A stretch of DNA of 42,821 bases. Origin: Sediminivirga luteola (lineage in GTDB: Bacteria > Actinomycetota > Actinomycetes > Actinomycetales > Brevibacteriaceae). The position numbers and the translations under genes were made by a program. The DNA lies in assembly GCF_014639315.1 (NCBI RefSeq), contig NZ_BMFY01000021.1:1-42821 (forward strand), given 5' to 3'. Positions 28,864-35,071 of this stretch are shown one piece after another; the stretch's first letter is position 1, and each line of letters opens with the position of its first letter. Below the pieces are notes generated by a model, which saw only the letters and a list, made by a program, of their open reading frames with translations, did not search any database and was not told where the DNA came from.

Positions 28864-29550
28864 CTACTCGATGGGGCGGGTGATGGCGATCAGGAGGTCG
28901 GCCAGCAGTGAGAGGTCGAAGACGACCTCCGGATCTTCCGGATCCGCGGTCTCCAGGGCCCGCTGCACCGCGAACTCGTAGGCGGCCGCGAGCAGGTCCA
29001 GGCTGACCTCGTCCGAGAGGGTGAACGCACGCCCGCATTCGGCGACGAACGCCTTCGCGGCCTCATAGATGGAGCACATCTCGGTCTCCTGGTACTCCAC
29101 CAGGGCTTTGCGCAGCGAAGGTACCTTGACGGCATACAGCTGGAGTTCCTTGAACGTCAGCAGCAGGGTCCGCTCGCGGGGCACCGCTGAAGCCAGCTCG
29201 GCCACGCAGCGGCGCAGCCGTTCCTCGCCGTCGGTGATCTCCGGGTAGCTGGTGGTGGCATCGACGACCCGCTGCTGGATCTGCCCGATGATGTGCAGCG
29301 AGACCGCCTCGATCAGCTCGTCCTTGCTGCCGAAGTTCGAGTAGAAGGCGCCTCTGGTGAAGTCGGCTTCCTCGCAGATCTCCTCGACGGAGGCGCCGGC
29401 GATGCCGCGCTGCGCGAAGACGTGCTGGGCGGCGGTCAGCAGCCGCTCCCGGGTGCGGCGCCTGCGCTCGGTGATGGCACCCTCCGGGGCCTCGGCCGGC
29501 ACCTCTGCCGGTGCCGCGGCGTGATTCGTGCGTTCCTGCTGCGTGCTCAC
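28864..29550 (-). CDS. TetR-family repressor of the MMPL/YhgE operon
   Basis: A 228-residue regulator. After a flexible Ala/Glu-rich tail of about 28 residues comes the TetR HTH: R-R-T-R-E-R-L-L-T-A-A, then V-E-E-I-C-E-E-A-D-F-T-R-G-A-F-Y-S-N-F. The C-terminal part is helical and family-typical. I place the start at the GTG at 29550, the last plausible start before the HTH homology; the frame is open to 29928 but that stretch contains the operators and tandem repeats. This leaves a leader of roughly 280 bases. Two tandem palindromes lie between it and the divergent MMPL gene, so it most likely represses both. Confidence 0.83.
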   Translation of the reverse strand: MSTQQERTNHAAAPAEVPAEAPEGAITERRRRTRERLLTAAQHVFAQRGIAGASVEEICEEADFTRGAFYSNFGSKDELIEAVSLHIIGQIQQRVVDATTSYPEITDGEERLRRCVAELASAVPRERTLLLTFKELQLYAVKVPSLRKALVEYQETEMCSIYEAAKAFVAECGRAFTLSDEVSLDLLAAAYEFAVQRALETADPEDPEVVFDLSLLADLLIAITRPIE

Positions 29551-29714
29551 TGTCTGTATGTCCTGGTCTGGGATGCTCGCGGGTGTCGGGTTGTTGCTGT
29601 ATGGGTCGTGGCGGCGCTGGTCATTCGTGCCCGGTCCGCGGGCCGGGAACGGTGCTCGGTGGCGGCTCGCAACGCCCTTCTGAGGAGCGTTGCCTTCATC
29701 CTCAGGGGACGTGT

Positions 29715-29754
29715 GTTCCTGCCGGTTCCTGCCGGTTCCTGGCGGTCCCTGCCG
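29715..29754. repeat. Four tandem 10-bp repeats in the tetR leader
   Basis: GTTCCTGCCG (29715-29724 and 29725-29734), GTTCCTGGCG (29735-29744) and GTCCCTGCCG (29745-29754). They lie on the tetR leader between its operators and its GTG start. The function is unknown. Confidence 0.75.
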
Positions 29755-29829
29755 GCGCTGTACCGGCTTCCAGGCGGGCCCGGCAGAGCGTACATTGGCG
29801 AATGCTGAGAACTTTACCCTGCAAGCCAA

Positions 29830-29864
29830 CGATACACTCATGTATTCGATACAGTAGTGTATCG
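29830..29864. promoter_or_regulatory. Two tandem TetR operators
   Basis: Site 1 is ATACA-CTCA-TGTAT (29832-29845) and site 2 CGATACA-GTAG-TGTATCG (29847-29864), the second a perfect 7-base inverted repeat around four bases. Their centres are 17 bases apart, so two repressor dimers could sit side by side on nearby faces of the helix. TACAGT (29850-29855) inside site 2 could be the -10 of the rightward MMPL promoter. Confidence 0.75.
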
Positions 29865-29963
29865 AGCGTTCCCCGGGATCTGCTCCCACTTTCCACCGGC
29901 GCCTGAGTCGCTCGCGCCGGATCGCCACCGTCGGCCGTGCACCGTAAGGAGACTGCTGCCCTC

Positions 29964-32810
29964 ATGTCGTCGTTCCTCTATCGCCTGGGCCGCCGCTGCT
30001 TCCGCTACCGCAAGACAGTGCTGGCGTCCTGGGTGCTGGTGCTGGCGATCGTCGGCGCTGTGGCCGGGCTGTTCTCCAAGGGCTTCGACAACACCTTCAC
30101 CCTGCCCGGCAGCCCCTCGCAGGAAGCGCTCGACGATCTGAACCGGACCTTCCCCGAGGTGGGCGGGGGCTCAGCGCAGATCATCGTGGTGACCGCCGAG
30201 GGGGACGTCATCGACTCGCCCTCCTACCGGGACCCGGTCGAGGACGCGCTCGAGGAGATCGAGGATCTGGCGCACGTCGAGATCGCCAGCAACCCCTACG
30301 GCGACGAGGCCGGGACCACCAGCCTCTCCGACGACGACCGGGCCGCCATCATCTCCGTCCAGTACGACCTGGGCACCCAGGAACTCCCGGCCAGCGCGTC
30401 CGAGGAACTCGAAGCAGCGGCGGCCGCGCTGCAGGAGCAGCTGCCGCCAGGGGCCCAGGCCAGCCCCGGCGGTGAGCTGTTCCAGATGGACGAGGTGCAC
30501 GTGAGCATCGTCGAGGCCATCGGCGTCGTGGTCGCCCTCATCGTGCTGCTCTTCACCCTCGGCTCGCTCCGGGCGGCGGGCATGCCGCTGCTGACGGCGC
30601 TGCTGGGCGTCGGCGTCTCGATCGCGCTCATCACCGCCGCCACGCTCTTCTTCACCATCAATCCCACCACCATCATGCTGGCGCTCATGCTCGGCCTGGC
30701 GGTGGGCATCGACTACGCGCTGTTCATCATCTCCAGACACCGGGACCAGCTGGCCGCCGGCATGGACGCCGAGGAGTCCGCCGCCCAATCCACCGCGACG
30801 GCCGGCTCTGCGGTCGTCTTCGCCGGGCTGACCGTGATGATCGCGCTGGCAGGCCTCTCCGTCGCAGGCATCCCGTTCCTCTCGGCCATGGGCGTCGCCT
30901 CGGCGGCGGCCGTTCTGATCGCGGTGCTCATCGGCCTCACCCTGCTGCCGGCGCTGCTGGGCTTCGGCGGGGAGAAGCTGCGCCCGCGGAAAGTCCGCGA
31001 GGCGCTGGCAGCCGGGCAGCCGGCACCCGAACCCCGTCCCACCGCGGCCAGCCGCTTCTTCCGCGGCTGGGTGCGGGCCGCCACGAAGATCCCCGCGCTG
31101 ACCATCGTCGTCATCGTGGTGGGCCTCGGCCTCTTCGCCATCCCCGCTCAGCGCCTGGAGCTCGCGCTGCCCTCCAACGCCACCGCGGAGGAGGGCACCC
31201 CTCCCCGGGTGACCTACGACCTCATCGACGAGCACTTCGGGCCCGGTTACAACGGCCCGCTCATCGTCAAGGCCGACATCATCTCCTCCACCGACCCGCT
31301 CGGCGACATGGACGACATCGCCGATGAGCTGCGGGATCTGCCCGGCGTGGCGGATGTGCCCATGGCCACGCCGAACATGAACGCCGACACCGGCATCGCC
31401 CAGGTCATCCCCGAGACCGCGCCGGATTCCCCGGAGACCGCGGATCTGGTGCGCACCATCCAGGACATGAGCGCCCAGTTCGAAGACGAGTACGGCATCA
31501 GTACCGCCGTCACCGGCTTCACCGCGATCGGCATCGACGTCTCCGACCGCCTGGCCGGGGCGCTGCTGCCGTTCGGCGCCATCGTCGTCGGCCTGTCCCT
31601 GCTCCTGCTGGCGATGGTGTTCCGTTCCATCTGGGTGCCGCTGAAGGCCACCCTGGGTTATCTGCTGAGCGTCATCACCGCCTTCGGCGTGGTGGTGCTC
31701 GTCTTCGAGGACGGGCACGGCGCCGCGGCGCTCGGGATCGATGTGCTCGGACCCGTCATCAGCTTCCTGCCGATCATCCTGATGGGCGTCCTGTTCGGCC
31801 TGGCGATGGACTACGAGGTCTTCCTGGTCTCCCGGATGCGAGAGGACTACGTCCACGGCGGGGACGCGCGGCACGCCATCGAGACCGGATTCGTCTCCTC
31901 CGCCCGGGTCGTCACCGCCGCCGCGATCATCATGTTCTCCGTCTTCGGGGCGTTCGTCCCGGCCGGAGAGCCGGTCGTCAAGGCAATCGCGCTGGGTCTT
32001 GCGGTCGGGGTGTTCGTCGACGCCTTCATCGTCCGGATGACCCTCGTCCCGGCGGTGATGGCGCTGCTGGGCCGGTACGCCTGGTGGCTTCCGCCGTGGC
32101 TGGACCGGCTGCTGCCGACCTTCGACGTCGAAGGCGAGGCGCTGGCCCGCCAGCTCGCCCTCAAGGACTGGCCCGCGCCCGATGCGCCCTGGCTGGTCTA
32201 CGGCGAGGACCTGGGCCTGCGCCTGGACCGGGGCGCCGGCTACGGCCGCGGTTTCTCCTCCGTCTCCCTCGCGGCAGCGCCGGGCGAGGCGCTCATCGTC
32301 ACCGGCAGCGGCCGGCGCGCCGTCCTGCTGGCACTCAGCGGACGGCTGCCCCTGGACGAGGGCCGTCTGAAGGTCGACGGCTACGTCCTGCCCGAGCAGG
32401 CCGGTCAGCTGCGCCGTGTCCTGCCCCACAGCAGCCTCCAGGACCTGCCCGGCACGGAGGGCCGTCCGGGCCTGCCCGCCGCCGGCGCGAACGAGCTGAA
32501 CGGCCTGGCCCGCAAGATCCGTGCCGGATCGGGGCCCCGCGTGACGCTGCTGGACGAGGCCGACACGGTCACCGGGACCGCTACCCGGGATGCCGCCGCG
32601 GACCTCGCCGCCGCCGCGCTCTCCGGCGGAAGCCGCACTGGAGAAGACGTTGCGCCCGGCTGCCTGGTCCTGGGCGCCCGGACGCCGGCCGCCGCGAGCG
32701 CGCTGCTGCCGCCGGGCACGCCCACCCGCATCGTCGACACGGATGAACCCGCCGCGCGCACCTCCGGGCACAGCGACCCGGCCGCGGCCATGGAAGGAGC
32801 CCGCCGATGA
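29964..32810 (+). CDS. MMPL-family RND transporter with a C-terminal degenerate ABC-ATPase-like domain
   Basis: A 948-residue inner-membrane transporter. Residues 1-715 are a standard MMPL protein with two halves of six helices: helix 1 near 20-38, an extracytoplasmic domain, the motifs G-I-D-Y-A-L-F-I-I-S-R-H-R-D (about 250) and M-D-Y-E-V-F-L-V-S-R-M-R-E-D-Y (about 617) that carry the proton-relay Asp-Tyr pairs. From about residue 742 there follows a soluble domain with the order of an ABC nucleotide-binding domain: L-V-Y-G-E-D-L, S-S-V-S-L-A-A-A-P-G-E-A-L-I-V-T, then T-G-S-G-R-R-A-V where Walker A should be (no Lys, about 779-787), L-S-G-R-L-P-L-D-E-G, and an intact Walker B-like V-T-L-L-D-E-A-D (860-867). 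The LSGGQ signature and the switch His are missing. The ATG at 29964 is chosen; AAGGAG lies 13 bases upstream. It overlaps the YhgE gene by ATGA. Confidence 0.88.
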   Translation: MSSFLYRLGRRCFRYRKTVLASWVLVLAIVGAVAGLFSKGFDNTFTLPGSPSQEALDDLNRTFPEVGGGSAQIIVVTAEGDVIDSPSYRDPVEDALEEIEDLAHVEIASNPYGDEAGTTSLSDDDRAAIISVQYDLGTQELPASASEELEAAAAALQEQLPPGAQASPGGELFQMDEVHVSIVEAIGVVVALIVLLFTLGSLRAAGMPLLTALLGVGVSIALITAATLFFTINPTTIMLALMLGLAVGIDYALFIISRHRDQLAAGMDAEESAAQSTATAGSAVVFAGLTVMIALAGLSVAGIPFLSAMGVASAAAVLIAVLIGLTLLPALLGFGGEKLRPRKVREALAAGQPAPEPRPTAASRFFRGWVRAATKIPALTIVVIVVGLGLFAIPAQRLELALPSNATAEEGTPPRVTYDLIDEHFGPGYNGPLIVKADIISSTDPLGDMDDIADELRDLPGVADVPMATPNMNADTGIAQVIPETAPDSPETADLVRTIQDMSAQFEDEYGISTAVTGFTAIGIDVSDRLAGALLPFGAIVVGLSLLLLAMVFRSIWVPLKATLGYLLSVITAFGVVVLVFEDGHGAAALGIDVLGPVISFLPIILMGVLFGLAMDYEVFLVSRMREDYVHGGDARHAIETGFVSSARVVTAAAIIMFSVFGAFVPAGEPVVKAIALGLAVGVFVDAFIVRMTLVPAVMALLGRYAWWLPPWLDRLLPTFDVEGEALARQLALKDWPAPDAPWLVYGEDLGLRLDRGAGYGRGFSSVSLAAAPGEALIVTGSGRRAVLLALSGRLPLDEGRLKVDGYVLPEQAGQLRRVLPHSSLQDLPGTEGRPGLPAAGANELNGLARKIRAGSGPRVTLLDEADTVTGTATRDAAADLAAAALSGGSRTGEDVAPGCLVLGARTPAAASALLPPGTPTRIVDTDEPAARTSGHSDPAAAMEGARR

Positions 32811-35071
32811 CCCCGAACCTGCTCGAGCGCGCCAGCGGAGGACGCGTCACCTGGGTCTCCCTGCTCGGGATCGTCCTGGTGCCGTTCCTGATCGCAGGCG
32901 GATTCGTCTGGGCCACATGGAACGCCTCCGACCGGCTCGGCGAGGTCCGCGCCGCGGTGGTGAACAACGACGAGGCCGTCGAGATGGACGGCCAGCTGGT
33001 GCCCCTGGGCCGCCAGCTGGCGGCGGGACTCGTCGACACCGACGACGACAACCTCCGCTGGGTGCTCTCCGACGACGAGGACGCCCGCGAGGGCCTCCAG
33101 GACGGCACCTACGCCGCCGTCGTCACCATCCCGGAGGAGTTCTCCGCCGACGCCCTCTCCTTCGGCGAGGACGACCCGGCCGAAGCGCGGCAGGCCACCA
33201 TCGACGTGCGCACCTCCGAGGTCGGGCCGCTCTCGGACGCGATGATCGGGCGCACCATCGCCGATGTCGCCACCTCCACCATGAACCGGGAGCTGACCGG
33301 CAACTACCTGGACAACATCTATCTGGGCTTCAACGACATGGGCGACCAGATGCGCGAGCTCGGTGACGCCGCCGACGAACTCTCCTCCGGCGCCGGGCAG
33401 CTCGCCGACGGCACCGGTGAGGCCGCGCAGGGAGCCGGGGAACTCGCGTCCGGGCTGGAGGAGCTCGACGCCGCCGGTGGCGAGCTCAGCGGCGGCGCCA
33501 GCCAGCTGGCAGACGGCGCGGGGGAGCTGAGCAGCGGTTTGAGCCAGCTGCGGGACGGCACCGCGGAGCTGCCGGAGAGCACCCGGCAGCTGGCCGACGG
33601 TGCAGGTCAGCTGTCCTCCGGCGTGGACGAGTACACGCGCGGCGTGGACCAGCTCGTCGAGGGGCTCTCCGAGGCCGGCGGGGAAGACGCTGCCGGAGGC
33701 CTGCAGGAACTCGAGGACGGAGCCGCTCAGGTCGCTGACGGCGCCGAAGGGCTCGACCAGGGGCTGCGCCAGTACCAGGCCGGCCTGCGGGACGCGGCGG
33801 CCAATCCTCCCGCGCCGACGCCGGAGGAACAGGCCGAGCTGATCGCTGAACTGTGCACCCCGCAGGACACGCCGGAGATGTGCCAGGCCAGGCTCGAAGG
33901 CTACGGGGCGGGCGTCTCCGAAGGTCTGGACCAGGCCGCCGCGGGCCTGGACCAGCAGGACCCGTCGACCGGGACCAGCCTCATCGGCGGCGCAGGCCAA
34001 CTCGCCGAGGGCGCCCGTGAGCTCTCCGATGGAATCTCCGCCGGGCTCGGGGAGCTTCTGGAGCAGTTGCAGCAGGCCGCCGAGGGCGCCGGGCAGCTGA
34101 GCCAGGCCGGAGCGCAGCTGCGCGACGGGGCCGGCCAGCTGGCAGACGGCACCTCACAGCTGGCCGAGGGCATGCCCGCCCTGGCCGAGGGCATCGGACA
34201 GGCCGCCGACGGTTCCGGTCAGCTGGCCTCCGGAGCGGGGGAACTCGCGACCGGACTGGGGGAGTACACCGCCGGGGTCGGCCAGGTGGCCGACGGCGCC
34301 GGTGAACTCGCCGGGGGACTGTCCCAGCTCGATGAGGGCGCCGGGGAACTGGCCGACGGCACCGACCAGTTCGCCTCCGGGATCGCCTCGGGCGCAGAGG
34401 AGATCCCCTCGTACACGGCCCCGGACCGGGAGCGGCTCTCCGAGGTGGTCTCGCAGCCCATCTCCCAGGACGCCGATGACAGCCTCTTCGCGGATTCGTC
34501 CGCCATCGCCCTGCTGTTGTCGCTGGCTCTGTGGATCGGCGGCCTGGTGACCTACCTGATCCTGCGGGCGGTGAGCGCGGGCGCGCTGAGCAGCACCGCG
34601 AGCTCGGCGGCGCTGGCGGCCCGTGCGCTGCTGCCGGGTGTGCTGCTGGCATCAGTCCAGGCCGTGGCGCTCGTGCTGCTGGCCCAGAGCGTGCTGGAGC
34701 TGGGGTTCGCTGATCTGTGCACCCTGCTGGTGTTCGCCATCGTCTCCGGCGCCGTCTTCGCCGCGATCCACCATGCGCTGGTGGCGTGGTTCGGCGGCGC
34801 GGGCCGGTTCGTCGCGGTGCTGCTGGCCGTCTTGGGCGCCGCGGCGCATGTGCTCTCCGCCGTGCCCGGGTTCTTCATGGCGGTCAAGCCGGCGCTGCCG
34901 CTGACGCCGGTGTTCAACGGCGTCGCCTCGATCGTGGCCGGTACCCCGGGCCTGGGAGCCGCCTACGGAGCGCTGTTCATCTGGTTCGTCCTGGCGGTGA
35001 CCGCCGGCTGGCTGGCGATCGCCCGGAAGCGCACCGTCTCGCGGGGGCAGCTGGCCGAGGCGCTGGCCTGA
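32807..35071 (+). CDS. YhgE/Pip-domain membrane protein
   Basis: A 754-residue protein with one N-terminal transmembrane helix (about 15-38, LLGIVLVPFLIAGGFVWATW), an extracytoplasmic N-terminal domain (V-V-N-N-D-E, typical of YhgE/Pip), then a long array of heptad-like repeats of the form G-A-G-Q-L-A-D-G from about residue 190 to 525, and a C-terminal ABC-2-type membrane domain of five or six helices from about 565. A non-repetitive stretch near the middle carries two Cys (C-T-P-Q-D and M-C-Q-A-R). The family includes phage-infection protein Pip and the EsaA-like secretion proteins. Its ATG overlaps the MMPL stop (ATGA), so the two are made together. The stop codon sits at the end of the first copy of a 24-base tandem duplication. 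Confidence 0.9.
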   Translation: MTPNLLERASGGRVTWVSLLGIVLVPFLIAGGFVWATWNASDRLGEVRAAVVNNDEAVEMDGQLVPLGRQLAAGLVDTDDDNLRWVLSDDEDAREGLQDGTYAAVVTIPEEFSADALSFGEDDPAEARQATIDVRTSEVGPLSDAMIGRTIADVATSTMNRELTGNYLDNIYLGFNDMGDQMRELGDAADELSSGAGQLADGTGEAAQGAGELASGLEELDAAGGELSGGASQLADGAGELSSGLSQLRDGTAELPESTRQLADGAGQLSSGVDEYTRGVDQLVEGLSEAGGEDAAGGLQELEDGAAQVADGAEGLDQGLRQYQAGLRDAAANPPAPTPEEQAELIAELCTPQDTPEMCQARLEGYGAGVSEGLDQAAAGLDQQDPSTGTSLIGGAGQLAEGARELSDGISAGLGELLEQLQQAAEGAGQLSQAGAQLRDGAGQLADGTSQLAEGMPALAEGIGQAADGSGQLASGAGELATGLGEYTAGVGQVADGAGELAGGLSQLDEGAGELADGTDQFASGIASGAEEIPSYTAPDRERLSEVVSQPISQDADDSLFADSSAIALLLSLALWIGGLVTYLILRAVSAGALSSTASSAALAARALLPGVLLASVQAVALVLLAQSVLELGFADLCTLLVFAIVSGAVFAAIHHALVAWFGGAGRFVAVLLAVLGAAAHVLSAVPGFFMAVKPALPLTPVFNGVASIVAGTPGLGAAYGALFIWFVLAVTAGWLAIARKRTVSRGQLAEALA

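Follow-up and report, generated by a model that had tools for sequence, protein, structure and literature searches.

Transporters of the MMPL type (RND superfamily, PF03176), for example MmpL3, consist of two MMPL domains with DY motifs, the latter having a proton-relay role. Members of the YhgE/Pip family have been described in Firmicutes as phage receptors or as parts of secretion systems; PMC4999554 lists the YhgE/PIP domain as one without known function and, in the portion of its text available, makes no mention of a nucleotide-binding domain (NBD) as its partner. Here we describe a locus of Sediminivirga luteola on a contig of 42,821 nucleotides (NZ_BMFY01000021.1, in the following the window). 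It encodes an MMPL protein of 957 amino acids (aa; 29937..32810, + strand, GTG start at 29937, with an in-frame ATG at 29964 as likely alternative start) that shares the two MMPL domains and the DY motifs with the described transporters. Unlike MmpL3-type proteins, it ends in a degenerate NBD of the ABC (ATP-binding cassette) type and is followed by a YhgE gene. We estimate a probability of about 0.6 that this tail is a fused, catalytically dead NBD that stems from an NBD-YhgE pair and has been kept as a docking adaptor between the MMPL protein and YhgE. Neither an MMPL-ABC fusion nor a YhgE-linked pseudo-NBD was found described in the titles and abstracts that literature searches on MMPL, YhgE/Pip, ABC and fusions listed.

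A degenerate ABC domain at the end of an MMPL protein

The pseudo-NBD comprises residues about 751-915 (32187..32681, + strand), as delimited by profiles and predicted fold, and is joined to the MMPL part by a linker running from PTFDVEGE to DWPAPDA (32115..32186, + strand). The initial annotation had read the order of an ABC NBD from short strings in the sequence, and all of these are present at the places it named: SLAAAPGE (32265-32288), TGSGRRA at the P-loop position (32301..32321, without Lys; L108, a relative that has the Lys, is 3 residues longer here), LSGRL (32334-32348), and the Walker B string LLDEAD (32547..32564, with the Asp and the following Glu both present). One point of emphasis changes: LSGRL forms the end of the helix following the P-loop and is no remnant of the ABC signature, and the helical subdomain in which the signature would lie is deleted. 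The tail contains neither GxxGxGK[ST] nor LSGGQ nor the switch His, as had been noted.

Taken alone, the tail of the window protein gives weak signals. The protein has no match to Pfam ABC_tran at E≤1, and the tail matches NCBIfam CcmA (E 0.0084) and PDB PhnK (E 0.059) weakly, as it does one ABC ATPase from the same genome (E 2e-4). Matches to Pfam CpaD (E 0.031) and to PDB haemagglutinins (E 0.64-0.85) were rejected as noise. A profile search of the segment, which the initial annotation had proposed, was carried out with alignments of relatives. Profile A1 (45 rows, made up of the window plus 44 out of 60 loci picked for matches reaching into the tail) retrieves 408 distinct PDB sequences at E≤0.01, with ABCA3 at the top (6.7e-16) and ABC proteins throughout the best 60 of 408. 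In the alignment of A1 with ABCA3, the relatives show a gap from the Q-loop side to Walker B, so that the helical subdomain is missing. Profile A5 (55 rows, made up of the window plus 54 out of 67 named loci with the tail), in which 53 of the 55 rows have no P-loop Lys, reaches EcfA1 at 2.1e-9; its matches up to the looser E≤1 include a few non-ABC chains, for instance a lipase and a designed barrel. Because the profiles of the relatives match ABC proteins, the likeness is more than one of chance. Nine of 10 selected relatives, graded intermediates, exceed the Pfam cut-off for ABC_tran.

The structure prediction and fold search, likewise proposed, returned an ABC ATPase fold. The AlphaFold2 model of 32115-32807 has a mean pLDDT of 88.5 and a pTM of 0.85. 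With Foldseek there are 763 matches in the PDB at E≤0.001, the top one at 8.9e-9; the best 50 of them are all ABC proteins with TM-scores near 0.5. A VIA-align superposition on 4yer_B gives Z 15.2 with 173 residues aligned at 3.9 Å. The tail is a degenerate ABC NBD.

A motif census covered 148 aligned domains, 135 fused and 13 stand-alone; L225, truncated where its contig ends, and one incomplete NBD copy at L162 were excluded. Eleven of the 135 fused rows have the P-loop Lys, against none of the 13 stand-alone rows, all of which have Arg instead. LSGG[QEM] occurs in 0/148 rows. The helical segment is short in 118 fused rows, the window included, and full-length in the other 17/135 as well as in 13/13 stand-alone rows. 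The Walker B Asp is found in 111/135 fused rows and the following Glu in 8/135, the window among these. As a control, GxxGxGK[ST] and LSGGQ are both present in 6/6 other ABC matches of the same genome. Together with profile and predicted fold, the census bears out the earlier designation as a pseudo-ATPase domain. Fused relatives from other families (L148-L151, L153, L154) still have the full helical segment and GKT, and the whole set forms a graded natural series, from the stand-alone NBD with helical segment, over fused forms with helical segment and Lys and shortened fused forms with Lys, to shortened fused forms without it. A separate, mostly Microbacteriaceae subgroup of Lys-less fusions (L122, L124, L125, L223, L224, L226, L228, L230, L232, L236) keeps the region ahead of Walker B long, and this region includes a signature-like position, for example LAALDPLSRAAVIAAAALAEEP in L124, unlike the shortened form of the window.

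Conservation within the tail is highest in the linker (mean relative entropy 2.31), with Trp745 as the most conserved position. The LKVxGxxLPExxxxxR block and the helix preceding it come second, and P-loop and Walker B are lower. In the window this conserved block, GRLKVDGYVLPEQAGQLRR (32361..32417, + strand), lies on the Q-loop side. The Q-loop side of an NBD is the place where the coupling helix of the membrane subunit docks, and the GRLKVDGYVLPEQ face of the tail is a candidate docking face for the cytoplasmic loops of YhgE.

The initial annotation had proposed to look for the same fusion in other Micrococcales. All 60/60 family genomes searched contain the tail within an open frame 576-1295 aa long, and named carriers include Brevibacterium, Microbacterium, Leifsonia, Leucobacter, Isoptericola, Tessaracoccus, Saccharopolyspora and Nocardioides. 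Two larger figures do not count fusions: the 242/297 genomes of one search include many matches to the MMPL end only, and the 387/394 genomes of the class-wide NBD search include ordinary ABC ATPases, for which E≤1e-6 is within reach too. Across a sample of the phylum, A5 at E≤1e-15 finds the window's own genome only (1/119). A quick tree of the MMPL part under a simple model (LG+G4, 102 of 147 rows after thinning) separates the 89 fused rows from 13 plain rows by a branch with an SH-aLRT of 99, and is consistent with a single fusion event. On this tree the Lys label needs 7 changes and the helical label 3; repeated loss of the Lys would be the simpler reading, since regain of a P-loop Lys is unlikely. 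The median ratio of non-synonymous to synonymous rates (dN/dS) is 0.226 for the tail core (range 0.08-1.07) and 0.127 for the MMPL part, from 71 close pairs among 26 family loci, a set preferred to a run of 232 pairs that had included distant, nearly saturated ones. The values suggest relaxed but mostly purifying selection on the tail. The initial annotation had also offered that the tail might be a relic of a gene fusion; the tree agrees with one fusion, but the tail is not merely a relic, since it is conserved and mostly under purifying selection.

The MMPL part itself matches PF03176 in two stretches (310.1 bits, cut-off 20.5) and carries GIDYA and MDYEV in transmembrane helices (TM) 4 and 10. 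By pattern, DY motifs are present in both helices in 84/89 fused rows, and from its sequence the MMPL part would be a proton-driven pump. In L208, L212, L218, L219 (Leucobacter) and L220 the regular expression matches at TM10 and not at TM4, which may point to an altered relay or to a motif that the expression fails to catch. The protein stays far under the cut-offs of the MmpL3 equivalog NF052608 (188.5 bits, cut-off 1400) and of the actII model TIGR00833 (192.3 bits, cut-off 874.7). An antisense open frame of 866 aa opposite the gene (30171-32771, - strand) is probably a by-product of the high third-position GC content, which is 0.93 in the MMPL part.

YhgE as the constant neighbour of the tail

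The gene directly downstream (32807..35071, + strand) overlaps the MMPL stop by 4 bases (ATGA) and encodes a YhgE/Pip family protein of 754 aa, probably of ABC-2 type, the single YhgE match in the window genome. The protein exceeds the cut-offs of the N-terminal YhgE/Pip model TIGR03061 (126.2 bits, cut-off 96.15) and of PF12698 (ABC2_membrane_3; 52.3 bits, cut-off 31.6). It also resembles the type VII secretion protein EsaA, whose N-terminal model TIGR03929 matches under its cut-off. Residues about 175-531 contain ten xxxLxxG heptad stretches (TIGR03057) with very long predicted helices, probably an extracytoplasmic stalk. A coupling of the tail to some partner had been suggested before. A likely partner is this overlapping gene, and a physical coupling of the two proteins is what we infer.

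Two sets of loci, one of 60 and one of 20, were picked for matches reaching into the tail. A YhgE frame lies directly 3' on the same strand in 59/60 loci of the first set, the remaining contig ending 88 bases on, and in 8/8 fused loci outside the order. Among 80 named loci YhgE directly follows 65/67 tailed MMPLs, the other two lying at contig ends, versus 0/13 tail-less MMPLs, one of whose contigs ends 251 bases on (Fisher p 2.7e-14 on the 65 + 12 judgeable loci, kinship uncorrected). No tail-less MMPL-YhgE pair is present among the loci examined. Over 58 loci, the divergence of the tail follows that of YhgE given MMPL with partial r 0.60 for the C-terminal and 0.52 for the N-terminal part of YhgE, and follows that of MMPL given YhgE with partial r 0.27, although the tail sits on the MMPL chain. 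Label permutation also breaks phylogeny, so the partial correlations alone were used. Profile A6 of YhgE consists of the window protein and 32 of 59 YhgE rows of suitable length.

NBDs of the same kind also occur as separate proteins beside YhgE. At 12 loci taken from among the best-scoring stand-alone NBDs in the class (L155-L166), YhgE lies directly downstream in 12/12 and no MMPL was detected. A search started from YhgE found it in 41/148 genomes, and 20 regions (L255-L274), covering 21 of the 57 YhgE places, all above cut-off, show an NBD-like frame directly upstream in 19/20 (none was found at L265) and an MMPL match in 0/20. Both groups look degenerate as a whole, the P-loop Lys being replaced by Arg, His or another residue; among 20 P-loops read by eye, Lys occurs only in L255, without Ser/Thr after it. 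Since stand-alone NBDs near YhgE are degenerate too, the degeneracy is tied to YhgE and not solely to the fusion. Eight stand-alone NBD proteins exceed no NCBIfam cut-off among the matches listed, and no name for a family of such NBDs was found. The fusion-bearing genomes G110, G095, G124 and G079 have a second YhgE elsewhere (L263, L264, L265, L268), preceded at L263, L264 and L268 by a strongly degenerate stand-alone NBD.

In Saccharopolyspora hirsuta, two genes with consecutive locus tags, one encoding a YhgE protein and the other an MMPL transporter, are reported to be upregulated 3.82 and 3.33 times, respectively, with cholesterol (PMC9782250); the available portion of that paper contains no remark on a fusion. 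Four other Saccharopolyspora loci (L190, L196, L202, L204) carry the fusion.

The tailed genes also share their upstream region. A divergent TetR-family regulator (28864..29928, - strand, PF00440 E 1.8e-14) precedes the MMPL gene; its frame is overlong, the DNA-binding domain starting near residue 163 of 354. Of the fused loci with 1.5 kb or more of upstream sequence, 102/130 have a divergent TetR relative there, whereas none was detected at the 13 plain loci. Between the two genes lies a tandem palindrome, CGATACACTCATGTAT/ATACAGTAGTGTATCG (29830..29864), with two ATACAnnnnTGTAT sites (29832-29845 and 29849-29862), a candidate TetR operator. The ATACAnnnnTGTAT core is found upstream in 98/133 fused loci at no more than 1 mismatch (exactly in 80/133), compared to 0/13 plain loci and 0-1/133 shuffled sequences. 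Across the window genome, this is the only place with the exact 16-mer GATACANNNNTGTATC. With two mismatches allowed, 12 places match versus 8 for the reversed control pattern, so the other similar places hardly exceed background. Among the stand-alone NBD-YhgE loci, L266 combines an exact ATACAnnnnTGTAT site with a TetR relative.

A proposed docking role and its alternatives

The ABC ancestry of the tail, its missing catalytic motifs, the one tailed group, the constant YhgE and the shared TetR and palindrome are supported by these analyses. We propose that a single fusion event placed the ABC ATPase subunit of an NBD-YhgE pair at the C-terminal end of an MMPL pump, and that the fused NBD would then have lost its catalytic parts while the domain was retained. 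Hanging on the cytoplasmic side of the MMPL protein as a non-catalytic docking adaptor, the tail would engage the cytoplasmic loops of YhgE where an NBD normally docks, and YhgE would thereby be tied to a proton-driven pump in one complex under control of a TetR repressor. Proton-driven movement may be transmitted to YhgE, with a putative role in exporting lipophilic or envelope compounds. Docking of YhgE to the pump through the dead NBD is proposed because of the conservation pattern, the co-divergence of tail and YhgE, and the DY motifs. Several points weigh against this proposal. The neighbour remains under the cut-off of the C-terminal YhgE/Pip model TIGR03062 (79.5 bits, cut-off 102.2, E 2.6e-22), and the fold search with the YhgE model (whole model, pTM 0.52) is uninformative, with mostly coiled-coil matches and none at E≤0.001. 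The tail evolves faster than the MMPL part (0.226 versus 0.127), single pairs reaching 1.07. The Lys is retained in 11/135 fused tails, and loss of ATP binding is therefore not universal. Kinship inflates all counts, those of neighbours included, and some of the loci were selected because they carry the tail.

The tail might instead serve the MMPL protein alone, in oligomerisation, folding or cytoplasmic regulation, with YhgE as a merely co-regulated neighbour. We consider this unlikely: the tail is covalently part of MMPL and its conservation peaks in the linker beside MMPL, yet YhgE follows tailed and not tail-less MMPLs, the divergence of the tail tracks YhgE more than MMPL, and the same kind of NBD exists as a separate protein beside YhgE in loci without MMPL. 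It is less probable again that the domain is an active or nucleotide-sensing NBD, binding ATP in an unorthodox way or forming a pair with a catalytic NBD whose gene lies elsewhere, in the manner of heterodimeric ABC exporters in which one site is degenerate. Such a role would fit the window's Walker B string with its Glu and the relatives that keep the Lys; it conflicts with the absence, by the LSGG[QEM] pattern, of the signature that a partner NBD would need from every aligned domain, with the short helical subdomain of most fused rows, and with a locus that has no other YhgE-type partner gene in a genome with a single YhgE match.

A functionless, decaying relic of a fusion is a reading to which we give similarly little credence. 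Repeated loss of catalytic motifs, as in the 7 changes of the Lys label, and a tail dN/dS above that of MMPL are what decay would produce; against it stand the presence of the tail in every family genome searched, the median dN/dS of 0.226, the intact, confidently predicted fold, and the lack of any tail-less MMPL-YhgE pair among the loci examined. A chance resemblance of motifs without ABC ancestry was set aside after the profile and fold searches and has a negligible probability: the window sequence alone has no ABC_tran match and merely 7 of the 45 A1 members match that model individually at E≤0.1, but profile matches, fold and graded intermediates contradict it. The docking adaptor is the reading that we retain, and with it two transporter superfamilies, the proton-driven RND/MMPL pumps and the ABC proteins, are joined in one polypeptide and one regulated module. 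For YhgE/Pip, known mostly from phage reception, this offers a candidate partner and a candidate way of working, and it becomes testable in actinobacteria whether ABC-2 permeases can run without ATP.

Relation to known transporters

A more far-reaching and doubtful extension is a hybrid RND-ABC machine, in which an ATP-free, ABC-2-type YhgE would be moved by MMPL via the dead NBD as a mechanical transmission; the YhgE/Pip proteins of actinomycetes would then constitute a class of ABC-like exporters with dead or nearly dead dedicated NBDs. The closest non-fused relatives by score, the stand-alone NBDs of L155-L166 and L255-L274, resemble the tail in their altered P-loop, the lack of LSGGQ and the adjoining YhgE. 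They differ from it in being separate proteins with no MMPL nearby, and those of L155-L166 have a full-length helical segment. Among described systems, ABC exporters with one degenerate ATP site, such as TAP1/2 and TM287/288, likewise keep an NBD despite its degenerate site. In these exporters, however, the second site remains intact and the NBD has its helical subdomain, whereas in the window the subdomain is deleted and the locus encodes no intact NBD.

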